Position numbers and translations under genes: made by a program
In this document: positions 807-31,856 of the stretch, piece after piece
Layout of the letters: each line of letters begins with the position of its first letter
How positions within the stretch are numbered: position 1 is the first letter of the stretch
From: a virus
Direction: 5' to 3' (one strand)
IMG/VR virus record: IMGVR_UViG_3300035179_000039
Coordinates: 1-35,462 of that record
Length of the DNA stretch: 35,462 nucleotides
The notes under the pieces: model-generated
What the model was told of the DNA's origin: nothing
Database searches by the model: none
Seen by the model: only the letters and a program-made list of their open reading frames with translations

Positions 807-3800
807 GTGAAAGTGGTTAGACCAACCTTCGCATTCGGGTCGACAAGCCGACAAAGAGCCCACGACCTGCGAGACACTGCAGTCAGCAGCAAAGCCTACA
901 TCGACTCCATCTACCCATGGTGGTGGGACGAACGAGAGTTTCCCCGAAGAGCGGTCATGACCGAATGGTTCTACAATCCGCTCAAAGGCCAGCCCCGCTA
1001 CGTCGACGTCTACCATCTCCGAAACATGGCCGCAAGCGAATGGGTCCACATGTGCACAAGCACCATCATCGAAGAAGTGTGTCAAGTCCCCTGGGAGCTG
1101 GTGCCCAAACGCCCAGAGCTACGTGAGTCGCCGCCCGAACAACTCCTCTGGCAGATAGAGGATCAGACCGAATTCTTCAACCGCTGCAACGAGAACAAGG
1201 AAACCCTGACTCACATCTTGCGAGCCCTGCTTCGAGACAGCCTGGAGCTGGACGCAAGCTGCCTCGTGAAAGGCTTCAGCGAACGCAGCTATGAACGGGT
1301 GCCAGAGGGCGGCTTTATCCTCAGACCCCGAGGCCAGCGAGAACTTGTGGAGCTGTTCGCTCGAGACGGCGGCAGCTTCATGAAGGAAACGGACGTGAAC
1401 GGCATCGAGCGCCGCTTCTGGCAGTACTCGTACCTGCACCCGGCCGTCGCCCCGATCGAGTTCGACACAGATGAGATCGCCTACGGCACGCGATATCCCC
1501 GCAGCTACAGCGTCTACGGCTGGTCCGAGCTGCAGAGCATGGAGACGATTCTGAACTGCCTCATCAACAGCGCTTTCACCAACGCCACCATGTTCCAAGA
1601 ATACGCCGTGCCCTCGGGCGTCATCAGCTTCCAAGGCTCTCTCGAGGACGAACGTAGGCTCAAAGAGTATTTCACCACCGAGATCAAAGGCCGCTTCCAC
1701 AAAGTGGCCGTGCTCAACAAGGACGCCACCTTCACGCCCATCACCATGTCGAACCGAGACATGGACTTCATCAACATGCAAAAGTGGTTTAGCAGGCTTT
1801 GCTGGGCTCTGTACAAGCTGACGCCGACCGAGCTGGGCTTCCAAGACGAGATCCGAGAAACCGGCAAGGCGATGGCTGCGCAAAGCAAACTGCAGAAACG
1901 GAAGGCCGTGATGCCTGCGCTCAAGCTGATCGAGATCGTGATCAACACGCAGGTCCTCAACGAGTTCACTGACGACCTGATCTTCCAGTTCCAGTACACA
2001 GACAAAGAAGAGGAATACGCGTGGGACGAGCTGTCACTCCAGCAGCTTGACCGAGGACTCGTCACAATCAACGAGCTGCGCAAGCGCCGGAAAATGGGTG
2101 CGCCAGTCGGCTGGGGAGACCTGCCTTTCCAGCTCACCCTTGCAGGAGCTCGGCCGCCAGCCATGGGCGCACCGCCTGGGCAGCAGTCTCTCGGAGAAAC
2201 CGACATGCAGGACAACGACATGGGCAAGCAGGTGTGGGGCGGCCGCAGCACCGAAGAATACGACTTCCGAACAGACATTCCTCAGAACGTTCGCGCGTTG
2301 AACCCGTCCAGCGGTCGCTACGAGCCAGTGAAGATAGGTAACAAGTTTGACAAACGTGAACTTGAGAAAGCCGTGAGCCTCATCGAGAAGAGCTTTCAGT
2401 ACCGTCTGCAGGCGCCCCGAAAGAAGCCGCTTGACCCCTACGAAGTGCACCTAGTGCAAAACCAGATCGCCAGGCTCAAAGCGGCGATCGGAAAGATCCG
2501 CTACCCCATGGGCGCCCTAGGACCGATGGGCACCAAGCCCGACCCGCCCAGTCGAGACGGCATGCTGCTGCCGGGCGAACAGAAGCCTCGCGACGTCGAG
2601 AAGCCTCTTGGACCGAACCAGACTCCAGCGCCTTACCGCACCGGACCCTACGATCGATACCGGGGCGGAGAACAGCCAAGTAACGAGTTTGCAGGCGGAC
2701 ACGGAGCGCACAGGTGGGAAAGAGACAACACGAACATGCGAGTCAAGCCTAGCGAACGAACGGATCCACGTGGCCTAGCACCGCCTCGGAAGCCCACAGT
2801 GCCTTATCTTGACGCAGAATACCAGATCGTGCCCACGCCGAAGATTCCAGTCGGACCCAAGTACCCCCGAGACGTGCCCCCAGTGCACGGCGCCACAGGC
2901 ATGCCTCGCAAGCCTCTCACAGACGAGGAAGAAGGCGACCAAGTGGATGAGTTCACTCCTGAGGGTGTGAGGCCGAAGGGATGGGTAACTATTGGCGGTC
3001 GGCCTGTGCTCATCGGAGAAGAAGATGAAGACGGAGCGGAAGCAGGAAAAGCGCCAAAAGGCACCAAGCTGGAAGGCACCTATTACCGAGGCAGCACCGA
3101 TGGCAAATATCGAGAGTTCAGCTACTTCACCAAGGAGCAAAGGGAAGCGCAGGTGTACGCTGAGGCGAAGGGCGGCAAGGTGTCCGAACACGATATCAAG
3201 GCGCAGAATGCTTTGAAGGCAAACGACATCTGGCACGCGGGAAAGAAGCTGGGCATTCCATTCGACCGAGACAAAGATGACCCTACGAAGGTGCGGCTGC
3301 AAATTCTGAATACCGCTAAGAAGCAAGGCTACGATGCCATCGATATGGACACTTGGACTGTCGCTATCAAACCTGATGTGGTGAAAGAAACTCGAATCTT
3401 GAAGACCAAGATGACTCCGCCTCTGCCGAGCATGGGCGGCAGCAAGTACCGTCAAGTCAAATTTCTTCGTTCAATCATGCCTGAGAAGCTGGGGCTGTAC
3501 GTGGAGCCTTTCGCAGGCGGCGCCGCCCTGTTCTTCGGGCTGCCTGAGAAGCCTGCGCAGGCGGTGCTGAACGACAAGGACCCGTCTTTCCCTACGTTGT
3601 GGCGATGGATCCAGCAAGCCACACCGGAGCAGATCGAGGACCTAAAGAAGCGTCCATGGACGGCTGAGCGAGACGACTTCTTCCGGGCTAAGGACGAGTT
3701 CAAGCCCCGCAGCCTTCTTGACCGGATCTGGCAGATCCTGTACGTTACGAGACATAGCTTCAGGAACAGCAGGCGCACTTGGCGAGGCGAAGACCGAAAA

Positions 3801-4544
3801 GGCACTCACAGAAACGGCATGCCGCAATGGATCAACAGGATCGACCAGTACCGGGAGCGGTTGCAAGGCGCCACGATTGAAAACAAGGACTGGAAAGAAG
3901 TCATGCAAGAGCACGATGGGCCGGACACGTTCTTCTACATTGACCCGCCCTATGAGCAGGAGTTTGCTAGGCAGCTGCCGGCGGTGCTGGACCGAACCAA
4001 GGGCAAGTGGCTGCTCAGCTTCGGAGAAGACGAGACGCTGCAGCGAGAGCTGGAGAAACGAGGCTTCCACGTCAAGGCGCTGAACGTCACCAACATGATC
4101 AACAAGCCTGATGCAGCCACACGCACCATGCGCCAGGAGATGCTGGCCGCCAACTACCCGCTCGAGTTCGATGGCGACGTCACCTTCAAGTTCGTGGACA
4201 CCGACGTCAGCATGAAACAGCTGTTCTTCTCTGAGGGACGCGTGGTGACCAAAGGCGTGCATGACCATGAGCAAGCCCTCTCAGACAGATTGAAGCTGCT
4301 GATCCGACAGGTGCACACCGGCGCCCTAGGAAAAGAGCAAGCAGCCATCGAAGCCAAAGCAGCGATCGACCACCACATTCTGCAGGGCGTGAAAGAGGCG
4401 ACTGAAAGCGCCGTCGCCCGACAGCTCAAGAAGGAGCAAGTGACCTTGCCGCCGGAAGCCATGGCTCGAATAGAACGCCAGGCGGCGCAGCACATGGAAG
4501 ACTTCATGCGAATCTTGGGAGATGCAGAGAATGCCCAAAAGTAG
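807..4544 (+). CDS. Portal fused to ART-like domain, D12 adenine methyltransferase and helical tail
   Basis: A 1245-residue protein starting with GTG at 807 (MKVVRP). Residues 1-440 look like a portal protein: the stretch FSRLCWALYKLTPTELGF followed by a long helix KAMAAQSKLQKRKAVMPALK is the usual portal stem and crown signature. Residues about 440-745 are a Pro/Gly-rich linker. Residues about 750-865 resemble the ADP-ribosyltransferase-like domain of phage polyvalent proteins (TYYRGS, FSYFT, a conserved-looking QNAL, KKQGYDAIDMD). Residues about 875-1130 are a D12-class DNA adenine methyltransferase, with EPFAGGAALFFG (SAM binding) and YIDPPYE at 3939-3956 (catalytic DPPY). The last 95 residues are helical and may be the N-terminal part of a MuF protein. 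An ordinary portal is roughly 400-550 residues. No frame break is seen, so this is either a true fusion or a precursor cut by the prohead protease. Confidence 0.88.
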   Translation: MKVVRPTFAFGSTSRQRAHDLRDTAVSSKAYIDSIYPWWWDEREFPRRAVMTEWFYNPLKGQPRYVDVYHLRNMAASEWVHMCTSTIIEEVCQVPWELVPKRPELRESPPEQLLWQIEDQTEFFNRCNENKETLTHILRALLRDSLELDASCLVKGFSERSYERVPEGGFILRPRGQRELVELFARDGGSFMKETDVNGIERRFWQYSYLHPAVAPIEFDTDEIAYGTRYPRSYSVYGWSELQSMETILNCLINSAFTNATMFQEYAVPSGVISFQGSLEDERRLKEYFTTEIKGRFHKVAVLNKDATFTPITMSNRDMDFINMQKWFSRLCWALYKLTPTELGFQDEIRETGKAMAAQSKLQKRKAVMPALKLIEIVINTQVLNEFTDDLIFQFQYTDKEEEYAWDELSLQQLDRGLVTINELRKRRKMGAPVGWGDLPFQLTLAGARPPAMGAPPGQQSLGETDMQDNDMGKQVWGGRSTEEYDFRTDIPQNVRALNPSSGRYEPVKIGNKFDKRELEKAVSLIEKSFQYRLQAPRKKPLDPYEVHLVQNQIARLKAAIGKIRYPMGALGPMGTKPDPPSRDGMLLPGEQKPRDVEKPLGPNQTPAPYRTGPYDRYRGGEQPSNEFAGGHGAHRWERDNTNMRVKPSERTDPRGLAPPRKPTVPYLDAEYQIVPTPKIPVGPKYPRDVPPVHGATGMPRKPLTDEEEGDQVDEFTPEGVRPKGWVTIGGRPVLIGEEDEDGAEAGKAPKGTKLEGTYYRGSTDGKYREFSYFTKEQREAQVYAEAKGGKVSEHDIKAQNALKANDIWHAGKKLGIPFDRDKDDPTKVRLQILNTAKKQGYDAIDMDTWTVAIKPDVVKETRILKTKMTPPLPSMGGSKYRQVKFLRSIMPEKLGLYVEPFAGGAALFFGLPEKPAQAVLNDKDPSFPTLWRWIQQATPEQIEDLKKRPWTAERDDFFRAKDEFKPRSLLDRIWQILYVTRHSFRNSRRTWRGEDRKGTHRNGMPQWINRIDQYRERLQGATIENKDWKEVMQEHDGPDTFFYIDPPYEQEFARQLPAVLDRTKGKWLLSFGEDETLQRELEKRGFHVKALNVTNMINKPDAATRTMRQEMLAANYPLEFDGDVTFKFVDTDVSMKQLFFSEGRVVTKGVHDHEQALSDRLKLLIRQVHTGALGKEQAAIEAKAAIDHHILQGVKEATESAVARQLKKEQVTLPPEAMARIERQAAQHMEDFMRILGDAENAQK
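1910..1931 (+). repeat. 22-bp direct repeat, copy in portal gene
   Basis: These 22 bases, coding for the portal segment MPALKLI, recur exactly and in the same orientation at 33643-33664, upstream of the fibre-like gene. A match of this length is not expected by chance in 35 kb. Confidence 0.85.
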
Positions 4545-4838: not shown

Positions 4839-6020
4839 TTGAGGAACCGCCGTGAAAGGGTGCCTTGGAGTGTGCTACATATAGCTGAAGAACCGGATTT
4901 CTGGAAGAGCCTAGATGGGCTGCTGATGCGCATAGATCTGCTGGCGCAGAACCTCGCCTGGAAGTCCTACAACGAAGCCATGCAGGAAACCCTGCGCTTC
5001 GAAGGCGTCACCTGGGTGGAATGGGTCTCAGACTACACGCAGGACCCGGCGAGAGGACCATGCCTCTACTGTGATTCGCAGTCCGGACGCCGCTACCGCC
5101 TAGGCCAGTTTCTGCCTTCGCTGCCTCATCATCCGAACTGCCTACCGGGGAACGCTCTTGTATCGTCCAGTCACAGGATCACGGGTGCTACGAAACGGGC
5201 ATACGATGGAAATGTTCTCATCATCCAAACAGCCACGGGTGACCCTCTTTCCGTCACGCCAAATCACCCTATACTCACACCGCATGGATGGGTTCCTGCC
5301 AGCTTCCTGAATAAAGGCAGCTACGTAGTCTGCCAGCGCAGAAGTGAGTCTATCTTGTCCAGTAATGGGAATCATCAACAGATGCCAACCCCTATTGAGA
5401 ATGTAGCGAATGCGTTTCTCATGATGCCGACGACGCTTCGCAGCAAAGTGCCAACCGCCGCCAAAGATTTCCATGGCGACGGACGGAACGGCGAGGTCGC
5501 AATTGTAGGGACCAATCGCCACTTGATGCCTAACAGAGATGCCTCGGTCAACAAGCATCTGCGCAAATTGGCGTTCATGGAGAGAGATGCCGCTCTGATG
5601 GGTCTCCACAGTCTTGGCCAATTGCAGTTTCTCAGAAAGACTCTTCTTTCGACCACGAGTAGCATCATGAGCCGCACGAACCTGTGCAGCTCGTTGCTCG
5701 GGATTCATCTGGCGCCATTTCAGGAGTCCTGCTTCATGGCGACCACGGATCGGTACGTTGGCTTGAATCAGACGCGCTCGAACCGTTCCTCGGTCGACCT
5801 TGAAGTGCTTCGAAACCTTCTTCTCCGAGATGCCGGAAACATATTCTTTGATGAGATTGTCGATGTCGGCTGGAGAAAGTTTCATGGTCACATCTACAAC
5901 TTAGAAACATCGGCGGGCTATTTTAACGCTTCCGACATAATCGTCTCTAACTGCAAGTGTGACTGGGCTCCAATTCTTCCGACAGAAGAGGAATATGTTC
6001 GCAAAGGCATATTTCCCTAA
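4839..6020 (+). CDS. MuF-type minor head protein interrupted by an intein
   Basis: The 393-residue precursor carries a 271-residue intein (5139-5951). The spliced product would be 122 residues ending in the MuF/SPP1-gp7 signature: CLYCDSQSG, then LPSLPHHPN joined to CKCDWAPI. In this family the HPNCxC motif closes the fold of the minor head protein that sits at the portal vertex. The start is uncertain: TTG at 4839, or GTG at 4860 preceded by a GAGG at 4841. The ordinary family N-terminal helices are not here; the end of the portal fusion may supply them. No membrane segments. The antisense strand of the intein encodes a nuclease (5142-5885). Confidence 0.88.
   Translation: MRNRRERVPWSVLHIAEEPDFWKSLDGLLMRIDLLAQNLAWKSYNEAMQETLRFEGVTWVEWVSDYTQDPARGPCLYCDSQSGRRYRLGQFLPSLPHHPNCLPGNALVSSSHRITGATKRAYDGNVLIIQTATGDPLSVTPNHPILTPHGWVPASFLNKGSYVVCQRRSESILSSNGNHQQMPTPIENVANAFLMMPTTLRSKVPTAAKDFHGDGRNGEVAIVGTNRHLMPNRDASVNKHLRKLAFMERDAALMGLHSLGQLQFLRKTLLSTTSSIMSRTNLCSSLLGIHLAPFQESCFMATTDRYVGLNQTRSNRSSVDLEVLRNLLLRDAGNIFFDEIVDVGWRKFHGHIYNLETSAGYFNASDIIVSNCKCDWAPILPTEEEYVRKGIFP
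5139..5951 (+). other. Intein (Hint-domain protein-splicing element), 271 residues
   Basis: Cys1 is at 5139-5141, opening block A (CLPGNALVSSSHRITG). Block B contains TPNH at 5256-5267 followed by PILTPHGWVPA. The C-terminal blocks are FHGHIYNLETSAGYFNASD and IIVSN, with Asn at 5949-5951, followed by the +1 extein Cys at 5952. The penultimate residue is Ser and not the usual His. There is no LAGLIDADG domain in the sense frame. The central region holds KDFHGDGRNGEVAIVGTNR, which I recall as characteristic of inteins in phage MuF proteins; that recollection was not checked against a database. The endonuclease appears to be supplied by the opposite strand. Confidence 0.9.
5142..5885 (-). CDS. 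Vsr/DUF559-like homing endonuclease encoded antisense within the intein
   Basis: About 247 residues from ATG at 5885 (a GTG two codons upstream, at 5891, is possible); a GTGA sits just upstream as a weak ribosome site. Residues about 8-50 form a helix-turn-helix (GISEKKVSKHFKVDRGTVRA), followed by a basic linker. Then comes a PD-(D/E)XK/Vsr-like core: SLHERQFAQMLVDRG, HQVAIGPYNCDLAV and SVAMEIFGGGWHF, with candidate catalytic Glu in LHERQ, Asp at 5496-5498, Glu at 5469-5471 and a following His, and a basic helix (KRRRHHEKRIRYILNRGW). The C-terminal YRVIWRDGKRVTRGC is a further strand pair. The whole gene lies inside the intein, its codons exactly opposite intein codons. Vsr-like (EDxHD) nucleases are known homing enzymes. 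Confidence 0.85.
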   Translation of the reverse strand: MKLSPADIDNLIKEYVSGISEKKVSKHFKVDRGTVRARLIQANVPIRGRHEAGLLKWRQMNPEQRAAQVRAAHDATRGRKKSLSEKLQLAKTVETHQSGISLHERQFAQMLVDRGISVRHQVAIGPYNCDLAVPSVAMEIFGGGWHFAAKRRRHHEKRIRYILNRGWHLLMIPITGQDRLTSALADYVAAFIQEAGRNPSMRCEYRVIWRDGKRVTRGCLDDENISIVCPFRSTRDPVTGRYKSVPR

Positions 6021-9284: not shown

Positions 9285-9390
9285 GTAACGATTCAGCCTC
9301 TTTTTGTGGGTAATTCGCCCAAAAACAGTTCAGATATGGCCCCTAGGCCCATTACTTCTCTGTTCAAGTCATAGAAGGAGAGGAAACGCT
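9285..9390 (+). promoter_or_regulatory. Leader region of the head-tail operon
   Basis: A non-coding stretch with a TATA-like CATAAAATA just before it, two short inverted repeats (GGGTAATTCGCCC at 9308-9320 and GGCCCCTAGGCCC at 9338-9350) and a strong ribosome site, GGAGAGG, at 9378-9384. It probably holds the promoter and leader of the structural genes. A related GGGCCCTAGG occurs at 26494-26505. Confidence 0.4.
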
Positions 9391-10404
9391 ATTCCTGAAA
9401 GACCGCCCAAACGGTGGTTCCGACAGACTCTGCGTGACGTCAAGCAGAGCCTGCGCGAGGCTCATCCTGACTGGAAGCCTGATACGGTTACGGAGCGTGC
9501 TCAAGCCACAGTCGGCGATGTCTGGCACAACAAGCTGGACGAAAAGAAGAAGCGAGAGATTCTCCGGCGAGAAGAGAAAGGAATCGGAGAGGCCCAGGTG
9601 GCGGTCGTTCGAATGCTCATGAGCCTGAAAGGGCTGCAGGAAGAGTTCGAGAAAGAGCGCCGAGAACACATGACCATGAGCGACCAACAGGTCGCGCAGA
9701 TAGTGCGGGACCACGCCACTCGAGCGGGCATGGGCCGTGAGGCAGCGGAATGGTCGCCGGCCCGAACCAAGAGCTTTCGCCCCATGGTCTCGAGACGATA
9801 CGCGCTCTTCATGCCTGCCAGACTCAAGACGGTCGGGGATCCACACACCGGCCAAGTCTACGTCGAGGGGTACATCAACATGCCTGTCAAAGACTTGCAG
9901 GGGGACCTTCTTGAGCTGCCGGCGCTGCATCAAGCCCAAGTGGCCATGATTCAGCCGCCTCACAACCTTGTCTGGCTGGACCACAAGTCGCCCTATGCAA
10001 GCCCGATGTACAATGATGCTCCACCGATCGGCCGATTCATCAAATCCAAGATCGTGAAGATAGGGTCGACGCCGGCGCTTTGGGCCCGCATGCTCATGAA
10101 CAAGGCGCACCCCGACTTCCAGCGCACCTTCTACGAACTCAAAAACAAGTTCCGCAATGCCTTCTCGATGGAGTTCATTCCTCTTCCTGGCTGCGAAGTG
10201 CTGAAAACCGTGGGCGACAAGATCGTGAACGCCATCAGCGGCATCAAGTACTTCGCAACTTCACTCGTGCGGGCGCCTGCCAACGAGGGCGCGACTACGA
10301 CTCGCGTCTATGTGAAGGCGTTCGCTAATTCATCCAAGTTCTGTCCAGTGCTGCTCAAGGGAGTGGGCTGGACCGGACAAACTGTAATGAAAAGGAGAAA
10401 ATAA
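9391..10404 (+). CDS. Prohead maturation protease
   Basis: About 337 residues. A Trp-containing N-terminal domain (KRWFRQTLRDVKQSLRE, ATVGDVWHNKL) precedes a protease core: YVEGYINMPVKDLQGDLLEL, then NLVWLDHKS with the candidate catalytic His, and FRNAFSMEFIPLPG with the candidate catalytic Ser. This order (His strand, then Ser in an SxEF-like motif) fits HK97-type (S78/XkdF-like) prohead proteases that cleave scaffold and capsid precursors. No ATG, GTG or TTG is well placed. ATT at 9391 lies seven bases after the strong GGAGAGG, so an ATT start is proposed; GTG 9304 is the farther alternative. It directly precedes the scaffold-like and capsid genes. Confidence 0.8.
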   Translation: MPERPPKRWFRQTLRDVKQSLREAHPDWKPDTVTERAQATVGDVWHNKLDEKKKREILRREEKGIGEAQVAVVRMLMSLKGLQEEFEKERREHMTMSDQQVAQIVRDHATRAGMGREAAEWSPARTKSFRPMVSRRYALFMPARLKTVGDPHTGQVYVEGYINMPVKDLQGDLLELPALHQAQVAMIQPPHNLVWLDHKSPYASPMYNDAPPIGRFIKSKIVKIGSTPALWARMLMNKAHPDFQRTFYELKNKFRNAFSMEFIPLPGCEVLKTVGDKIVNAISGIKYFATSLVRAPANEGATTTRVYVKAFANSSKFCPVLLKGVGWTGQTVMKRRK

Positions 10405-10406
10405 CT

Positions 10407-11147
10407 TTGAAAACCTTTCGATTCCGAAGAAAGGACCCAGATCCAGACCCTGACCCGGACCCTGATCCGGATCCCGATCCCGATCCCGATCCTGACCCTG
10501 ATCCTAGCTTCCCTGCTGAAAGACGGGACTTCGACCGCCAAACAGGCACCACCGCAGCCGAGCGGGCTTCAACCGGCTTGGGCGAGTGGGGAGATCCCAT
10601 CCAGCGAAGGGGGGGCAAGGTACCAGGAGAGGAAGAGGAAGAGGAGCTGGAAGAACGAGTCAAAGGACTGGAGACAATGATGGCAACAGTAGCAAAGAAC
10701 ATGGCAGTCATGGGTAAAGGACTCGGAGTGATAGGCAAGGCACTGGGCGTGCCGATCGATGTCAAAGGCATCGATGAGGACACGCTGGAAATCTTGGGCG
10801 AGAAAACCGCCTCAACAAGTCTTGAAGAGCAGGACTTTGGAGAGGTTGTGTACGGCCCCATGGGCAAGCCCAAGAAGCAGCGCGTCATCACCGCCATAGA
10901 GTCAGACGACCCTGGGGTTGACGAAGTGGACACGCAGGAAATCGGAGCCAAAAGCCTCGGACGATTCGTCGTGAAACTCGTCAGGAAGACGATAGGCGAC
11001 GAATTGGCTAGGCAGCGAATACTCCGGAAAGGATTCAACGAGGAATCCGGACCTATGCCTGAAGGCATCAGAGCAGCTCAACGCATCGCTAACGATGACG
11101 GCTCAATCGAGAGCCAGCTTGACATCATCGACGCATACAGAGGTTGA
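10407..11147 (+). CDS. Scaffold-like acidic protein with an Asp-Pro repeat
   Basis: A 246-residue protein from TTG 10407, with GGAG upstream at 10395. After a basic start (MKTFRFRRK) there are twelve Asp-Pro dipeptides in a row, then an acidic coiled-coil-prone region (EEEEEELEERVKGLETMMAT), a hydrophobic helix (KNMAVMGKGLGVIGKALGVP) and a charged C-terminus. Acidic, coiled proteins between protease and capsid genes usually act as scaffolds that are degraded during maturation. That role is inferred from position and composition. Confidence 0.65.
   Translation: MKTFRFRRKDPDPDPDPDPDPDPDPDPDPDPDPSFPAERRDFDRQTGTTAAERASTGLGEWGDPIQRRGGKVPGEEEEEELEERVKGLETMMATVAKNMAVMGKGLGVIGKALGVPIDVKGIDEDTLEILGEKTASTSLEEQDFGEVVYGPMGKPKKQRVITAIESDDPGVDEVDTQEIGAKSLGRFVVKLVRKTIGDELARQRILRKGFNEESGPMPEGIRAAQRIANDDGSIESQLDIIDAYRG
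10434..10505. repeat. Hexanucleotide tandem repeat (GAYCCN x 12)
   Basis: Twelve units of GAY-CCN encode the Asp-Pro run of the scaffold-like protein. The third codon positions vary (GAC/GAT, CCA/CCT/CCG/CCC), so the peptide repeat is kept while the DNA has drifted, which argues for selection on the protein. Confidence 0.85.
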
Positions 11148-11153
11148 TGAAAG

Positions 11154-12515
11154 ATGGCAGCTACAGATCTAAGTGAGCAGGCTTTGAGAATGCAACTGGC
11201 GCACCCCGCGTACCGCGACAAACACATGTCGCCTCAACAGGTCGCTCAGCTGAGAGAAGCGTTCCAATTCAAGCCCGTTCAAGTCGCTCAGCCAGGCTTC
11301 TCGCCCACCCTCAAACAAGTGAGGGCGGTGGGCTTCGGCCCAGACGAGTCAGCCCGCTGGGAGCAGATGGCCCGTCTCATGGTGGGTCCCGCGGCTGTGC
11401 CAGACGGCACACCGATCTATTTGGGACTCAACGGACGATGGGTCAAGGACCCTCTGACGGGCCGCATTGTCACTCGAGACGACTTCCGTCAAGGCTTCTG
11501 GAAGTGGACTAGAAACGGCATTCAGGCGCCTCAGCTACGCACCAAAGGCTACCTTGACTCCACGGCAGCCATAGTGCACACCACGACCGACCAGGAGATC
11601 ATCGACACGACTCGGAAGGAATGTCCGATCATGGAGCTTGTTCCGCAGGAAACTTCCCGGGGCAAGGTCGCATCATACGACATTCTGACGGCTCGTGCCG
11701 CAGCCATATTCACCACGGAGACAGTCAGCACCATCACGCCGGGAGATGACACGTACAAGAACGCCACGAAGACCATCGGCATCTTGATCTCGCCAGGCGG
11801 ATGGACCGACGTCGCCATAGCCACGATGGGCAGCCAGTACCCGAGCCGAGATGCGAGGGCGCTGGAAGTCCGGAACAAGACTTGGAGCTTGAACGAAGCG
11901 TGGGAGAACGAGATCCTGAACGGGTCTTCAAGCCTGGGAGCCTCTTCGAACGGCTTCGTAGGCATCCGTGCGGAGATCTACACCACGCAGACCGTGGCAG
12001 GCTTGCCTTCTGGTGAGGCTGATCAGAACTACGACAAGAACAACAGCGACATTGACGACACGGATATTGACAAGGCGATTGCAGACGGAGCATCTCGAAA
12101 CGTGAAATACAACCTGTGCATAACTGACCTGTGGACTTGGCAGAAAATCAAGCAATTCATGATGGGAGTCCTCATGTATGTGAATCCGGAAACGGAGATC
12201 GCGTGGGGACTGAAAGCGCTGGCTTGGCATACGCCCTACGGCACAATGCCGATAGTGGCAAGCAAGTTCATGCCTGTGACAGCGGCCGCTCGTGAAGTGC
12301 TTTTCTTGGACACCAAGTTCCTCGCCCAAAGAATGCTGTTGGACTCGACCATGGAGATGCTTCCGAAAGCAGCTTTGAGTCAGCCGTTTGTCATCAAGAA
12401 GTTCGCCAACATCATCGATAAGACTCAGGCATACGCGCAGACATACAACAACAACAGCTGGCCCGTCACAACGACCGGGACCTCGAAGATGGCCCGGATC
12501 TACGGGATCGCATAG
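11154..12515 (+). CDS. Major capsid protein, HK97 fold
   Basis: A 453-residue protein. The N-terminal about 150 residues are a helical, Gln-rich segment (MSPQQVAQLREAFQFKP) of the kind cleaved or used as an internal scaffold. The core contains IVHTTTDQEIIDTTRKECPI, a strand-rich middle with WTDVAIATMGSQYPSRDARA and NEAWENEILNG (spine helix), and a C-terminal P-domain with MPIVASKFMPV and EVLFLDTKFLAQRMLLDSTM. This layout is that of phage and archaeal-virus HK97-like capsids. It lies between the scaffold-like gene and the connector genes, as expected. Confidence 0.85.
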   Translation: MAATDLSEQALRMQLAHPAYRDKHMSPQQVAQLREAFQFKPVQVAQPGFSPTLKQVRAVGFGPDESARWEQMARLMVGPAAVPDGTPIYLGLNGRWVKDPLTGRIVTRDDFRQGFWKWTRNGIQAPQLRTKGYLDSTAAIVHTTTDQEIIDTTRKECPIMELVPQETSRGKVASYDILTARAAAIFTTETVSTITPGDDTYKNATKTIGILISPGGWTDVAIATMGSQYPSRDARALEVRNKTWSLNEAWENEILNGSSSLGASSNGFVGIRAEIYTTQTVAGLPSGEADQNYDKNNSDIDDTDIDKAIADGASRNVKYNLCITDLWTWQKIKQFMMGVLMYVNPETEIAWGLKALAWHTPYGTMPIVASKFMPVTAAAREVLFLDTKFLAQRMLLDSTMEMLPKAALSQPFVIKKFANIIDKTQAYAQTYNNNSWPVTTTGTSKMARIYGIA

Positions 12516-26878: not shown

Positions 26879-27127
26879 ATGAAAGGACCACCTTGTTTCT
26901 CGCCGGACTGCAATCGATGCGGCCTCGGCGGGATCTGCAGAAACCATCCAGCTAATCAACCCGCGGCGCCTCAGGCAGCAGACATATTGCAGGCTCTGTT
27001 CAGCCAGCAGGCGCCACCCACCATCCGTCAGGGACCCCTCATGTTTCTGTGGGACGGCACCGTGCTCACGAGTTCAGGTGAACGCATGCCTCTTCAAGAG
27101 TTTCTGGCGAAGGCACGAGGCGAATAG
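26879..27127 (+). CDS. Small Cys-cluster protein
   Basis: An 82-residue protein. FSPDCNRCGLGGICRNHPAN at the N-terminus is a compact Cys/His cluster, then an Ala/Gln-rich helix (ADILQALFSQQAPPT) and a strand pair (GPLMFLWDGTVLTSSGERMP). A GAAAG precedes the ATG. Adjacent to the caspase-like gene by 2 bases. Confidence 0.65.
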   Translation: MKGPPCFSPDCNRCGLGGICRNHPANQPAAPQAADILQALFSQQAPPTIRQGPLMFLWDGTVLTSSGERMPLQEFLAKARGE

Positions 27128-27129
27128 TC

Positions 27130-28671
27130 ATGGATCCACAACTAACCGCGCTTTTGATTGAACTGTGCGCAGGTATCTTGGGCGGAGTCGCCTACATGAT
27201 CCTGCCGCCTGAAAGCCACGATGTGCTCACCGACGCAAAACAGTGGTTGCGCCACCTGTTCGCAGGCGGCCTAGTCGGCCTGCTCGCCTACCTGAGCGGC
27301 GTCAAACCTGATCTAGTCTCTCTCGCTGGCATCATCGGATCTGGCTACTGGGGCATCGACGTGATCAAGTATGCGTTTAACCACTTCCGGCCGAAAGAAG
27401 GCTTGTCGCAGAAGGAACTTGAGCAGCTTGACCCGACCACGCAGCTAGCCATCAAAAACCTTGAAGAAGCCACCCGAAAAGACTTCAGCAAGCACCCCGT
27501 CAAGTTGGGCGACAAAGAGTTCGAGAAGAATGAAGGCGACCGCCTCACAAGCCTCAACGCCGGCCTATTCGGATCCGTGTGGCCCGCCCGAGGCGTCACT
27601 CGAGCGGAACAGTACGAGCACATGGTGCAGGGCACACCGCTTGGCAAGAAGCTGGTTCGCATCTTCAGCAAAAAGCCGCCAGTCGCCCCTTTGTTCACAG
27701 ACTTGCCGACACTGCAAATCAAAGGACGCGTTCTTCCAGAAGAAATACAGATCCTCACGATTCCTGACGGCGACTGGGGCGACACTGCATGCCGCTTCGG
27801 CCAATACTGGAACAAGAAGATGATAGGCGAATACGCTAGGCAGCTTGGATTCTCAGTCGTAGAGCTTGATGGCGACCAAGCGAAGCGAACTCAGTTTGAA
27901 GCAGCCACCGCTGCCACCTCGCTAGTCCGAGGAATAGAAGGTACCGGCCACGGAGACTCCACAAGGTACACGGGATACCGACAAGATGTGCTACTTGAAC
28001 CTGTGAACTACGGCAACATGAGAAACCGGATCGGCAGCTTCCTCAGCTGCCAGTTCGGCGACTCTTTCCAGCAGCGCCTCAGCCAAGGAGAGCTCGCAGA
28101 GCACTCTTACATAGAGGACTTTGTGTTCAGCATCGACAACGAAGATCCGACCATGGACTCGCACAGCAAGTACTTTTTCTGTCCGCACAGCGACTACTTC
28201 CGAGCGCTCTTGGAAGGGCTGCTGCACGGCCCCGCCACCGTAGCCTGCATCACGTCATGGAACACTTGGCTTAGCAAGGCGCCGTACACCATCCAGTACT
28301 ACATGCAGTGGGACATTGATGCGCAGCAGTTTCCGGGAGACGATGCCGCAGGCCTAGGCGGATCACCCGCTGAGAAAGTTGACAAGGTAGAATTCTATCT
28401 AGACGACGCTTTGGCGGACACAAAGACGCAGCCCAAGACCGGCAACCTGTACGAGTCCATTCAGACCCTTGAACCCGGAACCTACACATGGTGGAGCGTG
28501 CCCTACTACAAAGGCGTGCGCGGACAGGAGAGTGCACACATCACGTTCGAAGTTGAAGAAAGCTCAACAGATACATCGAAAGCTATCGCAGTGAGCCCCA
28601 AGCAAGGAGACAAAGTGCCCGCCGGACCCGTTCCCCTGCAAGCAGAGGCCGTGATCGTAAAACAAACATAG
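27130..28671 (+). CDS. Membrane-anchored caspase-like (clan CD) protease with Ig-like C-terminus
   Basis: A 513-residue protein. Residues 1-85 contain two or three membrane segments (LIELCAGILGGVAYMIL, HLFAGGLVGLLAYLSG, LAGIIGSGYWGIDVIKYA). Residues about 200-380 look like a caspase/gingipain (C25)-type fold: a Rossmann-like start (ILTIPDGDWGDTACRFG), GIEGTGHGDSTRY with the candidate catalytic His274, and GSFLSCQFGDSF with the candidate nucleophile Cys307. The last 150 residues form a beta-sandwich (KVEFYLDDALADTK, SIQTLEPGTYTWWSVPYYKG) and a second Ig-like start. It may open the host cell envelope or S-layer at exit, or act in the virion at entry. It carries copy B of the 28-bp inverted repeat. 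Confidence 0.7.
   Translation: MDPQLTALLIELCAGILGGVAYMILPPESHDVLTDAKQWLRHLFAGGLVGLLAYLSGVKPDLVSLAGIIGSGYWGIDVIKYAFNHFRPKEGLSQKELEQLDPTTQLAIKNLEEATRKDFSKHPVKLGDKEFEKNEGDRLTSLNAGLFGSVWPARGVTRAEQYEHMVQGTPLGKKLVRIFSKKPPVAPLFTDLPTLQIKGRVLPEEIQILTIPDGDWGDTACRFGQYWNKKMIGEYARQLGFSVVELDGDQAKRTQFEAATAATSLVRGIEGTGHGDSTRYTGYRQDVLLEPVNYGNMRNRIGSFLSCQFGDSFQQRLSQGELAEHSYIEDFVFSIDNEDPTMDSHSKYFFCPHSDYFRALLEGLLHGPATVACITSWNTWLSKAPYTIQYYMQWDIDAQQFPGDDAAGLGGSPAEKVDKVEFYLDDALADTKTQPKTGNLYESIQTLEPGTYTWWSVPYYKGVRGQESAHITFEVEESSTDTSKAIAVSPKQGDKVPAGPVPLQAEAVIVKQT
27698..27725. repeat. 28-bp inverted repeat, copy B
   Basis: An exact reverse complement of 20485-20512. Here it is coding, for about residues 190-199 of the caspase-like protein (TDLPTLQIKG). 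Confidence 0.85.
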
Positions 28672-28691
28672 CCTCGGCATGGGACCGGATC

Positions 28692-28928
28692 TTGACTGTT
28701 GACCCTGACGTTAGATCACTGCCCGACCGAGAGCTTCTAATCCTCGTCGCAGAGAGAGTGCGCACCCTCAGCGAACAGATCAAGCCCATGTGCGACAGCT
28801 ACCCCCGCTACCAGGAGCGCGTCGACACGCACATAGAGAACCACCGCACCAACACTGCCACCATCCTTGTAATCGCAGGGATTATAGCCACCCTCATCGC
28901 AGCCATAGTCCCAAGGTTCGTGAAATGA
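28692..28928 (+). CDS. Holin-like small membrane protein
   Basis: 78 residues from TTG 28692. A soluble helix (LVAERVRTLSEQIKPMCDSY) and a charged hinge (RVDTHIENHRTNTA) precede one membrane segment (TILVIAGIIATLIAAIVPRF) with a basic end. The same plan is found in XhlA-type holin partners. Directly behind the membrane protease, it may form a lysis unit with it. Confidence 0.65.
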   Translation: MTVDPDVRSLPDRELLILVAERVRTLSEQIKPMCDSYPRYQERVDTHIENHRTNTATILVIAGIIATLIAAIVPRFVK

Positions 28929-29576: not shown

Positions 29577-29787
29577 CGCTCCCCCTGAAACAAACCTGCC
29601 CAACATAGAGCGGTCAAAGCGACGCATATTCGACCAATACACCGTCCTAAGAGTGTCAACGCAGAACCTGGGAGAAGCAATCGTAGCATACATCCAAGAC
29701 GTCGAACGCCGACAAGCCCTACTCACCCTCAAAGAAAAAGACAAGAAGCCAAGCCCCCCAAAGGAAGCCCCCCATGACAAAGAATGA
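29569..29787 (+). CDS. 72-residue helical protein preceding the terminase
   Basis: PNIERSKRRIFDQYTVLRVS and TQNLGEAIVAYIQDVERRQA are helices, followed by a Lys/Pro-rich tail. It overlaps the terminase small subunit by 14 bases. The coding strand here and in the next 150 bases is unusually rich in C and A, with runs of CCC. Confidence 0.6.
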   Translation: MSNAPPETNLPNIERSKRRIFDQYTVLRVSTQNLGEAIVAYIQDVERRQALLTLKEKDKKPSPPKEAPHDKE

Positions 29788-30364
29788 CGCACCCCCGACA
29801 AAAACCCCCACAAAAGATGACGGCAAAAAAACCACCCCGCCACTCCGAACCAGACAAGACAGAGCCTACCGAGCCTGGCAACTCCACCTCACAGGCACCC
29901 CCGCCCACATCATAACCCAAAACCTCAAAACCCTAGGCTTCAAATGCAGCCAACGAACCATAGAACGCGACCTCTCCGACATGCGAGCCAAACGCCAAAT
30001 CGATCAGGCTACGAAACCCGACCTGTACAAGCGTGACCTGGCTCAAAGCGTGGACGAAAAGAAAGGCCTGTTCAAGAAGCTGCAGGAAATTGTTGAGAAG
30101 CCTGCGCGGTTCGATGAGGAAGGCAACGAAGAGGACCGAAGCTTTGTGCAGGTCCACGCAATCAGAGCGGCCACGGTGCTCTCTCGGGATCTGGACCGCC
30201 TGTACGGATTAGACCTGTCAGCCGTGAGGATGAAACTAGATGAGCATGAGGCAGCAATCGCAAGTCTCCAACAGGCTCTTGCAGCAAGAAAAGGACCTGC
30301 AGCAAATCAAGGAGCAGATAGCGCGAAGCCAAGCTCTGGAAGCCCTGCACCAGGACCCAGTTGA
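29774..30364 (+). CDS. terS: Terminase small subunit
   Basis: A 196-residue protein. After a Pro/Lys-rich start, residues about 35-75 form a helix-turn-helix (RAYRAWQLHLTGTPAHIITQ, then LGFKCSQRTIERDLSDMRAK) that would recognise the packaging site. A central coiled region (YKRDLAQSVDEKKGLFKKLQ, VHAIRAATVLSRDLDRLYGL) fits oligomerisation, and the C-terminus, rich in Ala, Pro and Ser, would contact the large subunit. It overlaps the large-subunit gene by 125 bases. Confidence 0.8.
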   Translation: MTKNDAPPTKTPTKDDGKKTTPPLRTRQDRAYRAWQLHLTGTPAHIITQNLKTLGFKCSQRTIERDLSDMRAKRQIDQATKPDLYKRDLAQSVDEKKGLFKKLQEIVEKPARFDEEGNEEDRSFVQVHAIRAATVLSRDLDRLYGLDLSAVRMKLDEHEAAIASLQQALAARKGPAANQGADSAKPSSGSPAPGPS

Positions 30365-31856
30365 GTGGGCCCTGCGCTGCCGCATCCTGAAAGGCGCAGC
30401 GTTCACCTTCCAAGACCGCGACTATCTCCTGCCGATCTACCGGGATCCGCACCGGCGAGTAGTGGTGGCCAAAGCCCGGCAGATGGAGATGACGGAGTGG
30501 ATCGTGAACTGGCTGCTCTACCAGCTGACCACGAACCCCAACACCACGGCGATCTACACGGCTCCCAGAATGGATCAGGTCAGCCGCTTCAGTCGAGACA
30601 GGCTCAGAAAAGCGATCTGGGACAGCCCCGTGCTCAGGCATGTGGTGATTGAGTCTAAGGACGTGGAAGGGCAACCGGCCATCAGCCGCATACCCTTCGA
30701 CAACGGCTCCCTCTGCTACATGTACTCAGGCTGGGGAGACTTCAGCGCCATAAGAAACATACCGGCAGACTTCGCAGCCGTAGATGAAGCCCAAGACGTT
30801 TCAAGCGAAGCCTTACCAGTCCTGACAGAAACTATGGCTCACAGCAGCTTCGGCCGCATGGTCATAGTGGGCACATCTTCAGACGCAGGCTCACAGTTCG
30901 ACCAGCGCTGGCAGGAAAGCGACATGAAGGAATGGGACTCAGACGCTAAGGCGTGGGTTCCTCAAAAACCCCAAAACCGCAGCTACAGCGGCTACCACAT
31001 GACGCAGGAGATGGCCGTGTGGATCACAAAGCTGCCGCCCGAAGACGTCAACAGCATTCCCTACAAGCGTGCGCACTACTTGCCCCGCCTCTTCCAAAAT
31101 GAAGTGCTCGGCCTGTTCTACCGAGGCTTAAGGAAACCTTTGATCACGCAGGACCTGATGGAGTGCCGAGACTTTGAGTCAACCATGTTCCAAGCCCTCA
31201 ACGCGCCCTATGTCTCGTATGCCGGGATCGACTGGGGCGGCGGAGAATTCTCCTTCACCCTGATCTGGATCATGGCGATGGACGAGCTGGATCGATGGCG
31301 CCTGCTCTATGTGCACAAGTTTGACGAGCGCGACCCAATGAAACAGGTCGCCACGATCGGCAACCTGATCAACCTGTTCAACGTCAAGCAGGCCGTAGCT
31401 GACATGGGTTATGGCGCTGTGCAAGTCTCGGAGCTGCAGAAGAAGTTCGCGGATCGGGTCTTGGGCTGCCACTACATCAGGCGCCCCGAGCTCCCGCTCG
31501 AAATGAAGCACCGGGACGAAGCTGGAGAAAGAATCGCCCAAATGATCCTGCTCGCAGACCGCAGCTTCTGGATCGAAACCGCTCTGGACGTGATCAAACG
31601 CACCGGCCCAGACGGCAAACCTACGCCTCGCCTAGTCCTGCCATGGCAGCGGCCGGAAGAAGTGGAGTGGCTCATCGACCACTTCACGTGCCTAGAAATG
31701 GAAGAGCAGGAAACCGTCGCCGGCAAGAAATATCACCACTACACGCATCCGGAAGGCCAACCGGACGACGCTTATCATTCATTCGTTTATGCTCTGATTG
31801 CATACCACGCCAGGAAGATGGGTCATGAGCTAGGCGTGGTGGATCTGTTCGGATAG
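30240..31856 (+). CDS. terL: Terminase large subunit
   Basis: A 538-residue protein. The ATPase has a deviant Walker A (VVVAKARQMEMTEW, about residues 74-87), Walker B FAAVDEAQDV (residues 178-187, Asp182-Glu183) and a coupling motif MVIVGTSS. The nuclease half has VSYAGIDWGGGEF (Asp331), AVADMGYGA (Asp388) and QPDDAYHSFVYALIA near the end, the acidic triad of RNase H-like terminase nucleases. The Walker A lacks the usual GK(T/S), as in a subset of RQ-x-E terminases. ATG 30240 overlaps the small subunit by 125 bases; the conserved-looking part begins near residue 35. Confidence 0.92.
   Translation: MSMRQQSQVSNRLLQQEKDLQQIKEQIARSQALEALHQDPVEWALRCRILKGAAFTFQDRDYLLPIYRDPHRRVVVAKARQMEMTEWIVNWLLYQLTTNPNTTAIYTAPRMDQVSRFSRDRLRKAIWDSPVLRHVVIESKDVEGQPAISRIPFDNGSLCYMYSGWGDFSAIRNIPADFAAVDEAQDVSSEALPVLTETMAHSSFGRMVIVGTSSDAGSQFDQRWQESDMKEWDSDAKAWVPQKPQNRSYSGYHMTQEMAVWITKLPPEDVNSIPYKRAHYLPRLFQNEVLGLFYRGLRKPLITQDLMECRDFESTMFQALNAPYVSYAGIDWGGGEFSFTLIWIMAMDELDRWRLLYVHKFDERDPMKQVATIGNLINLFNVKQAVADMGYGAVQVSELQKKFADRVLGCHYIRRPELPLEMKHRDEAGERIAQMILLADRSFWIETALDVIKRTGPDGKPTPRLVLPWQRPEEVEWLIDHFTCLEMEEQETVAGKKYHHYTHPEGQPDDAYHSFVYALIAYHARKMGHELGVVDLFG

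Follow-up and report, generated by a model that had tools for sequence, protein, structure and literature searches.

Genes at the locus

The IMG/VR virus record IMGVR_UViG_3300035179_000039, taken here as a single window over its whole length of 35,462 nt, carries its likely genes mostly on the + strand. The gene on which we focus encodes a protein of 513 amino acids and starts 2 nt past the stop of the ORF at 26879-27127. The genes that bear on its interpretation are the following:

9304-11147, + strand: two ORFs immediately preceding the capsid gene, candidate prohead protease and scaffold
11154-12515, + strand: major capsid protein (phrog_25898, E 7.6e-10)
27130-28671, + strand: 513-aa fusion of a holin-like membrane region, a clan-CD-type cysteine protease and an Ig-like domain
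28692-28928, + strand: small protein of 78 aa with a polar N-terminal region and one C-terminal membrane helix (residues 55-73)
29774-30364, + strand: probable small terminase subunit, assigned by position only; downstream boundary of the slot discussed below
30240-31856, + strand: large terminase subunit, the anchor for finding relatives and host

The 513-aa gene is real: a near-identical copy (99%) is present on a second contig, and the protein has homologues. The two copies differ by 2 silent and 4 changing codons, too few for a selection test, and no Pfam or NCBIfam family claims the protein at 1e-4. A sequence-only reading of this DNA had described a small one-span membrane protein after the protease, which agrees with the 78-aa product and its single helix.

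Two of the structural genes have unusual features of their own. A portal protein, an ART-PolyVal-like region and a D12-type DNA adenine methyltransferase are combined in a single 1245-aa protein (807-4544). The head morphogenesis protein (4839-6020) has a sub-threshold intein-type match at residues 113-370, and a tblastn alignment to Salmonella phage head proteins crosses this region.

The same reading had allowed that the 513-aa protease acts on capsid proteins. This is now less likely, since the capsid gene has a candidate prohead protease of its own next to it. The two ORFs at 9304-11147 have no profile match and owe their candidate assignment to position and a motif; both match one 771-aa protein that precedes the capsid gene in L029, and a candidate prohead protease and scaffold are found before the capsid gene in G007 as well as in L029. 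The ORF at 10407-11147 opens with a long Asp-Pro repeat, and the matching linker is Glu-Pro rich in relatives. Archaeal proviruses can use unusual maturation proteases, as in the Nvie-Pro1 provirus, where a chymotrypsin-like maturation protease is fused to the capsid protein (PMC6563490). However, a membrane anchor is ill-suited to head assembly and, with a separate candidate at hand, we consider it scarcely credible that the 513-aa protein is a capsid maturation protease.

A predicted protease domain with a clan-CD-type dyad

The following features can be placed within the 513-aa gene:

27148-27378, + strand: hydrophobic N-terminal region, residues 7-83 (hydropathy; weak holin profile match)
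27742-28329, + strand: protease domain, residues 205-400
27949-27951, + strand: codon of H274 (G-H-G), predicted catalytic His (11 of 11 homologues; C25 register)
28048-28050, + strand: codon of C307 (L-S-C), predicted nucleophile (11 of 11 homologues; C25 register)
28372-28557, + strand: Ig-like domain, residues 415-476, sub-threshold (Big_7)

H274 and C307 are 33 residues apart and stand in the two motifs of a clan CD dyad, 'LVRGIEGTGHG' for the His and 'IGSFLSC' for the Cys, each after a hydrophobic strand. The sole match of the protease in the phage collection is vir519_00054 of the Methanofastidiosa virus BK063666 (pairwise E 7e-10), which keeps the GHG and LSC motifs. A two-sequence profile recovered a Methanoperedens homologue (E 1.3e-5), and a three-sequence profile recovered 8 more in 256 genomes of the Bathyarchaeota class (E 2.6e-21 to 8.5e-6). 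Because of the pairwise match to BK063666 and the best of these profile matches to archaeal genomes, chance similarity is excluded.

The dyad proposed from the sequence alone, a clan-CD-type His-Gly (H274) and Cys (C307), was to be doubted if the two residues proved poorly conserved in relatives. Both are invariant in all 11 rows of an alignment of the 513-aa protein with its homologues from the Methanofastidiosa virus, the Methanoperedens genome and the 8 genomes of the Bathyarchaeota class. In an hhalign comparison, the family aligned to genuine C25 peptidases of that archaeal class with a probability of 68% and P 4.7e-5, its His and Cys falling in register with the catalytic residues of C25; a terminase used as control gave P 0.85. 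The curated Peptidase C25 model (PF01364) has no match in the 513-aa protein and matches its viral relative from BK063666 below threshold (14.6-15 bits, cut-off 23; E 0.015). From these sequence comparisons, clan-CD-type homology of the protease domain appears well supported, and membership of C25 fails the curated cut-off.

Sequence and profile searches of the PDB gave no significant match, the best for the 11-row profile being 3bij (E 1.2), and AlphaFold2 models built without an alignment were unusable (pLDDT 33 for the full protein, 31 for the domain alone). Viral contigs were scanned for protease relatives four more times, which brought up only the near-identical contig or unrelated proteins, and a search of plasmids found none.

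The homologues on archaeal chromosomes have no membrane helix and conserve the His and Cys. One of them, at L173:1252-1890 in a Methanoperedenaceae genome, has an apparent histidine kinase gene and an apparent response regulator gene as neighbours, and this may be a signalling or defence locus. A group of bathyarchaeal caspase-like proteins (L185-L188 and L190) has the motifs YDHGS and STVSC and neither a membrane helix nor, in this analysis, a family assignment.

Membrane region and Ig-like domain

The membrane helices attributed to the 513-aa protein stand in part. Residues 7-25 form a clear helix (mean hydropathy 2.13), and the two further candidates, in windows from residues 51 and 61, are moderate only (1.44 and 1.23). 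The N-terminus matches the holin profile phrog_6384 weakly (E 0.021), a match that is to be read with the caveat that small hydrophobic proteins match by composition. It also bears a weak resemblance to a stand-alone 103-aa membrane protein whose gene precedes that of the subtilisin in L010; 3 of 300 shuffles scored equally high, and kinship between the two sequences is suggestive only. The charges flanking the hydrophobic region point to an N-out, C-in topology, which is that of class I holins.

Downstream of the catalytic domain, Big_7 reaches 21.7 bits against a cut-off of 24.1 (E 3.2e-4 for the C-terminal piece), and residues 484-513 look like the first half of a second Ig-like domain. The "Ig-like domains" first described are therefore one sub-threshold domain and a second that is only half-like, and the plural was somewhat generous.

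Proteases of four folds upstream of the terminase genes

The slot upstream of the terminase genes is visible in nine contigs, namely the present record, L007, L008, L010, L012, L013, L015, L020 and G007; L009 is similar to L008, and L011 begins at the terminase. All nine encode a protease there, its stop separated from the large terminase gene by about 0.9-4.1 kb, and these enzymes represent four unrelated folds: the clan-CD type of the present record, chymotrypsin-like, subtilisin and papain. The proteases of the relatives are:

L008: phrog_20754, chymotrypsin-like (4.6e-13)
L013: phrog_20754, chymotrypsin-like (4.9e-24)
L007 and L012: close homologues of the L008 protease
L010: subtilisin, Peptidase S8 (6.7e-18)
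L015: papain, Peptidase C1 (1.3e-4)
L020: papain, Peptidase C1 (1.2e-7)
G007: papain, Peptidase C1 (1.4e-22)

We read phrog_20754 as chymotrypsin-like because of the motifs GGSSGS/GGDSSS and because the L013 enzyme matches the serine protease of Aeropyrum virus ACV (E 8e-6), its sole match among 50,697 records of the phage collection. A 5-kb slot holds just 5-7 of the 34-45 coding-strand genes and, since it is so small, the recurrence of a protease within it is unlikely to be due to chance; the slot had been noticed before it was tested.

Membrane proteins recur there too. Helices are part of the protease itself in the 513-aa protein and, at the C-terminus, in L008, L012 and L015; in L010 and L013 the protease gene has a 4-nt overlap with a hydrophobic multi-helix gene. 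The pairing with holin-like membrane proteins that was first noted in this virus is seen around the slot in its relatives. Small proteins with a C-terminal helix, similar in shape to the product of 28692-28928, are encoded in L007, L008, L010, L013, L015, L020 and G007; in sequence, the similarity of the 78-aa protein is clear only to its L008 counterpart (z 6.8) and weaker to that of L013 (z 3.7). The L010 subtilisin ends in an Ig-like region. The Methanofastidiosa-virus homologue of the 513-aa protein has no membrane-protein neighbour and does not lie close to the terminase.

Several other genes in and near the slot deserve mention. The proteases at L008:3528-5177 and L012:4434-6083 are cysteine-rich and carry CBM_14 (peritrophin-type) repeats and two C-terminal helices; such repeats on a slot protease are unusual for an archaeal virus. 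In L007, a tubulin/FtsZ-type GTPase (1548-2540; E 8.1e-10) immediately follows the slot protease; it may have a bearing on lysis or on division of the host. Near the slot, relatives also have a PLD-type gene and 'PhageMetallopep' metallopeptidases (L039:14391-14990; L020:8564-8998; L039:16401-16886).

A peptidoglycan or pseudomurein hydrolase had been reported missing from this virus, and the wider search agrees: in Pfam scans of 210 proteins of the virus and its relatives, none occurs among the families listed, which are those ranked above a further 7 in the Pfam scan and 2 in a second family scan. The genomes scanned include G007, a probably complete one with an end repeat.

These observations bear on two other roles for the protease. 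If it were part of the particle or mounted on the tail, it could cut the S-layer during entry; the substrate logic would be the same, the Ig-like domain could be virion-bound, and structural genes are close by. However, the slot lies upstream of the terminase and distant from the tail genes, and the membrane proteins that keep recurring around it are holin-like or small and C-terminally anchored, which makes a virion or entry protease distinctly unlikely in our judgement. Alternatively, the enzyme could remodel the host surface or mediate superinfection exclusion by acting on host surface proteins, with no part in lysis. A membrane anchor and an Ig-like domain would suit surface display, but the slot directly precedes the terminase, relatives have holin-like proteins next to it, and no other lysis gene was found among the families listed; we hold this surface role to be very improbable.

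Host of the virus group

The terminase group has 10 viral-contig members besides the near-identical one, mostly at 60-68% identity, and its best named phage match is to the terminase of a bacterial phage (35% identity). When genomes were first scanned with the terminase alignment, no relative turned up. Contig C16 of genome G064, from the Bathyarchaeota class, encodes a terminase with 64-71% identity to members of the virus group, and this contig also carries TBP, RadA, GatE and NFACT genes:

L178:1786-4707: terminase pair of the virus group in a provirus fragment near the end of an archaeal chromosome contig (G064)

The fragment belongs to a group that has no close named virus in the phage collection. 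The group terminase was found in a single genome among 256 from the Bathyarchaeota class and in none of 339 Thermoplasmata genomes. Because it sits on an archaeal chromosome contig, the host clade is, on this sequence evidence, archaeal; the archaeal host first proposed holds in this sense, as an assignment of the clade and not of the individual virus. Relatives also encode an Hjc-type resolvase and a HerA-like ATPase, which are only suggestive as an archaeal sign, as bacterial controls match too. A 43-nt match in G148 was considered as a CRISPR spacer and dropped; it has no flanking repeats and lies inside an apparent gene.

A candidate protease-based lysis cassette

Altogether, we think it probable that 27130-28928 supplies a tailed archaeal virus with the part of a lysis cassette that attacks the host wall, and that the target of the protease is probably the S-layer. 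The strongest support is comparative and comes from sequence: a slot protease is predicted in the relatives as well. A broader proposal is that the slot is a lysis cassette of viruses with Bathyarchaeia-type hosts in which proteases (clan-CD, subtilisin, papain or chymotrypsin-like) are swapped to match the S-layer of the host and work with holin-like partners, the clan-CD member being a holin-protease fusion; for this wider claim we see the case as evenly poised.

We imagine a sequence of events in which the holin-like part would build up in the cytoplasmic membrane and open lesions late in infection. With an N-out, C-in topology, the protease would therefore begin on the inside and meet the S-layer once the lesions open. 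The tethered enzyme could then reach and cut the protein S-layer, possibly held there by its Ig-like domain, and the cell would burst. The whole would resemble a holin-endolysin pair, with proteolysis taking over the task of the muralytic enzyme. The chitin-binding-type repeats of the L008 and L012 enzymes and the Ig-like region of the L010 subtilisin fit enzymes that act outside the membrane.

The main rival to this model is an intracellular one, in which a membrane-tethered caspase-like protease cleaves host defence, division or membrane proteins for host takeover or death and lysis is brought about otherwise. The family is caspase-like, the positive charges after the hydrophobic N-terminus suggest that the protease is cytoplasmic, and the homologues in archaeal cells, one of them beside the apparent histidine kinase and response regulator, recall signalling or defence. 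Yet the presence of four folds in one slot fits bulk proteolysis of a wall more easily than cleavage of one specific intracellular target, and the L008 and L012 enzymes, with their many cysteines and chitin-binding-type repeats, look like typical extracellular proteins. We judge the intracellular role unlikely and favor the lysis model.

How most archaeal viruses exit from hosts that have no peptidoglycan is the question to which these findings speak. A 2015 review suggested holins "possibly combined with proteolytic enzymes" that degrade the S-layer, enzymes that were "currently unknown" (PMC4456609), and in a 2025 survey of 129 archaeal dsDNA viruses only 10.9% had recognisable lytic proteins (PMC12596118). 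The main text of a survey of Bathyarchaeia viruses names no protease, holin or endolysin and mentions a polysaccharide lyase that possibly acts on S-layer sugars (PMC10848311). In the literature searched, which was largely open-access, we found no report of a protease slot in archaeal viruses. A conserved slot filled by differing proteases supplies named, expressible candidates and makes the S-layer-protease hypothesis directly testable. If the model is true, the slot would represent the missing S-layer endolysin system of archaeal viruses, provide a rule for spotting lysis genes in uncultured archaeal viruses and yield tools for opening archaeal cells.

Comparison with known systems

Several known proteins share parts of this arrangement. 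Like the C25 gingipains, the 513-aa protein has a GHG and Cys dyad in register and an Ig-like domain after the catalytic domain, and the His-Cys spacing of 33 residues is the same in gingipain R; unlike them, it is sub-threshold to Pfam and has a shorter catalytic region and a membrane anchor. The archaeal caspase-like proteins (8 of 256 Bathyarchaeota-class genomes, and Methanoperedens) have a homologous domain with invariant His and Cys, but they are found in cellular genomes and have no membrane helix. Closest in setting is vir519_00054 of BK063666, also from a tailed archaeal virus, which combines a homologous protease domain with a membrane anchor; in contrast to the 513-aa protein, its anchor is C-terminal, it has no holin-like or Ig part, and its gene occupies another genome position.

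Among wall enzymes of archaeal viruses, the pseudomurein endoisopeptidases PeiW and PeiP also use a Cys nucleophile. They differ in that their substrate is pseudomurein and they belong to another family, of which no member was seen among the families listed here. A putative PET_C39-like endolysin has been proposed in Methanophagales virus GBV302 from structural similarity alone (TM-score 0.556; PMC12596118). Its papain-like fold is reminiscent of the slot enzymes of L015, L020 and G007, but neither a slot nor an exchange of proteases has been connected with it.

The arrangement as a whole is most reminiscent of the holin-endolysin cassettes of tailed phages, with small membrane proteins and a candidate wall enzyme encoded just before the terminase. 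The lysis cassette of lambda likewise lies just upstream of its terminase genes. Here, by contrast, a predicted protease stands where those phages have a muralytic enzyme, the 513-aa protein joins it to the membrane part, and the host clade is archaeal. The idea of an S-layer protease is already in print; the candidate cassette would be a variation on the familiar holin-endolysin principle, in which wall degradation is left to a protease.
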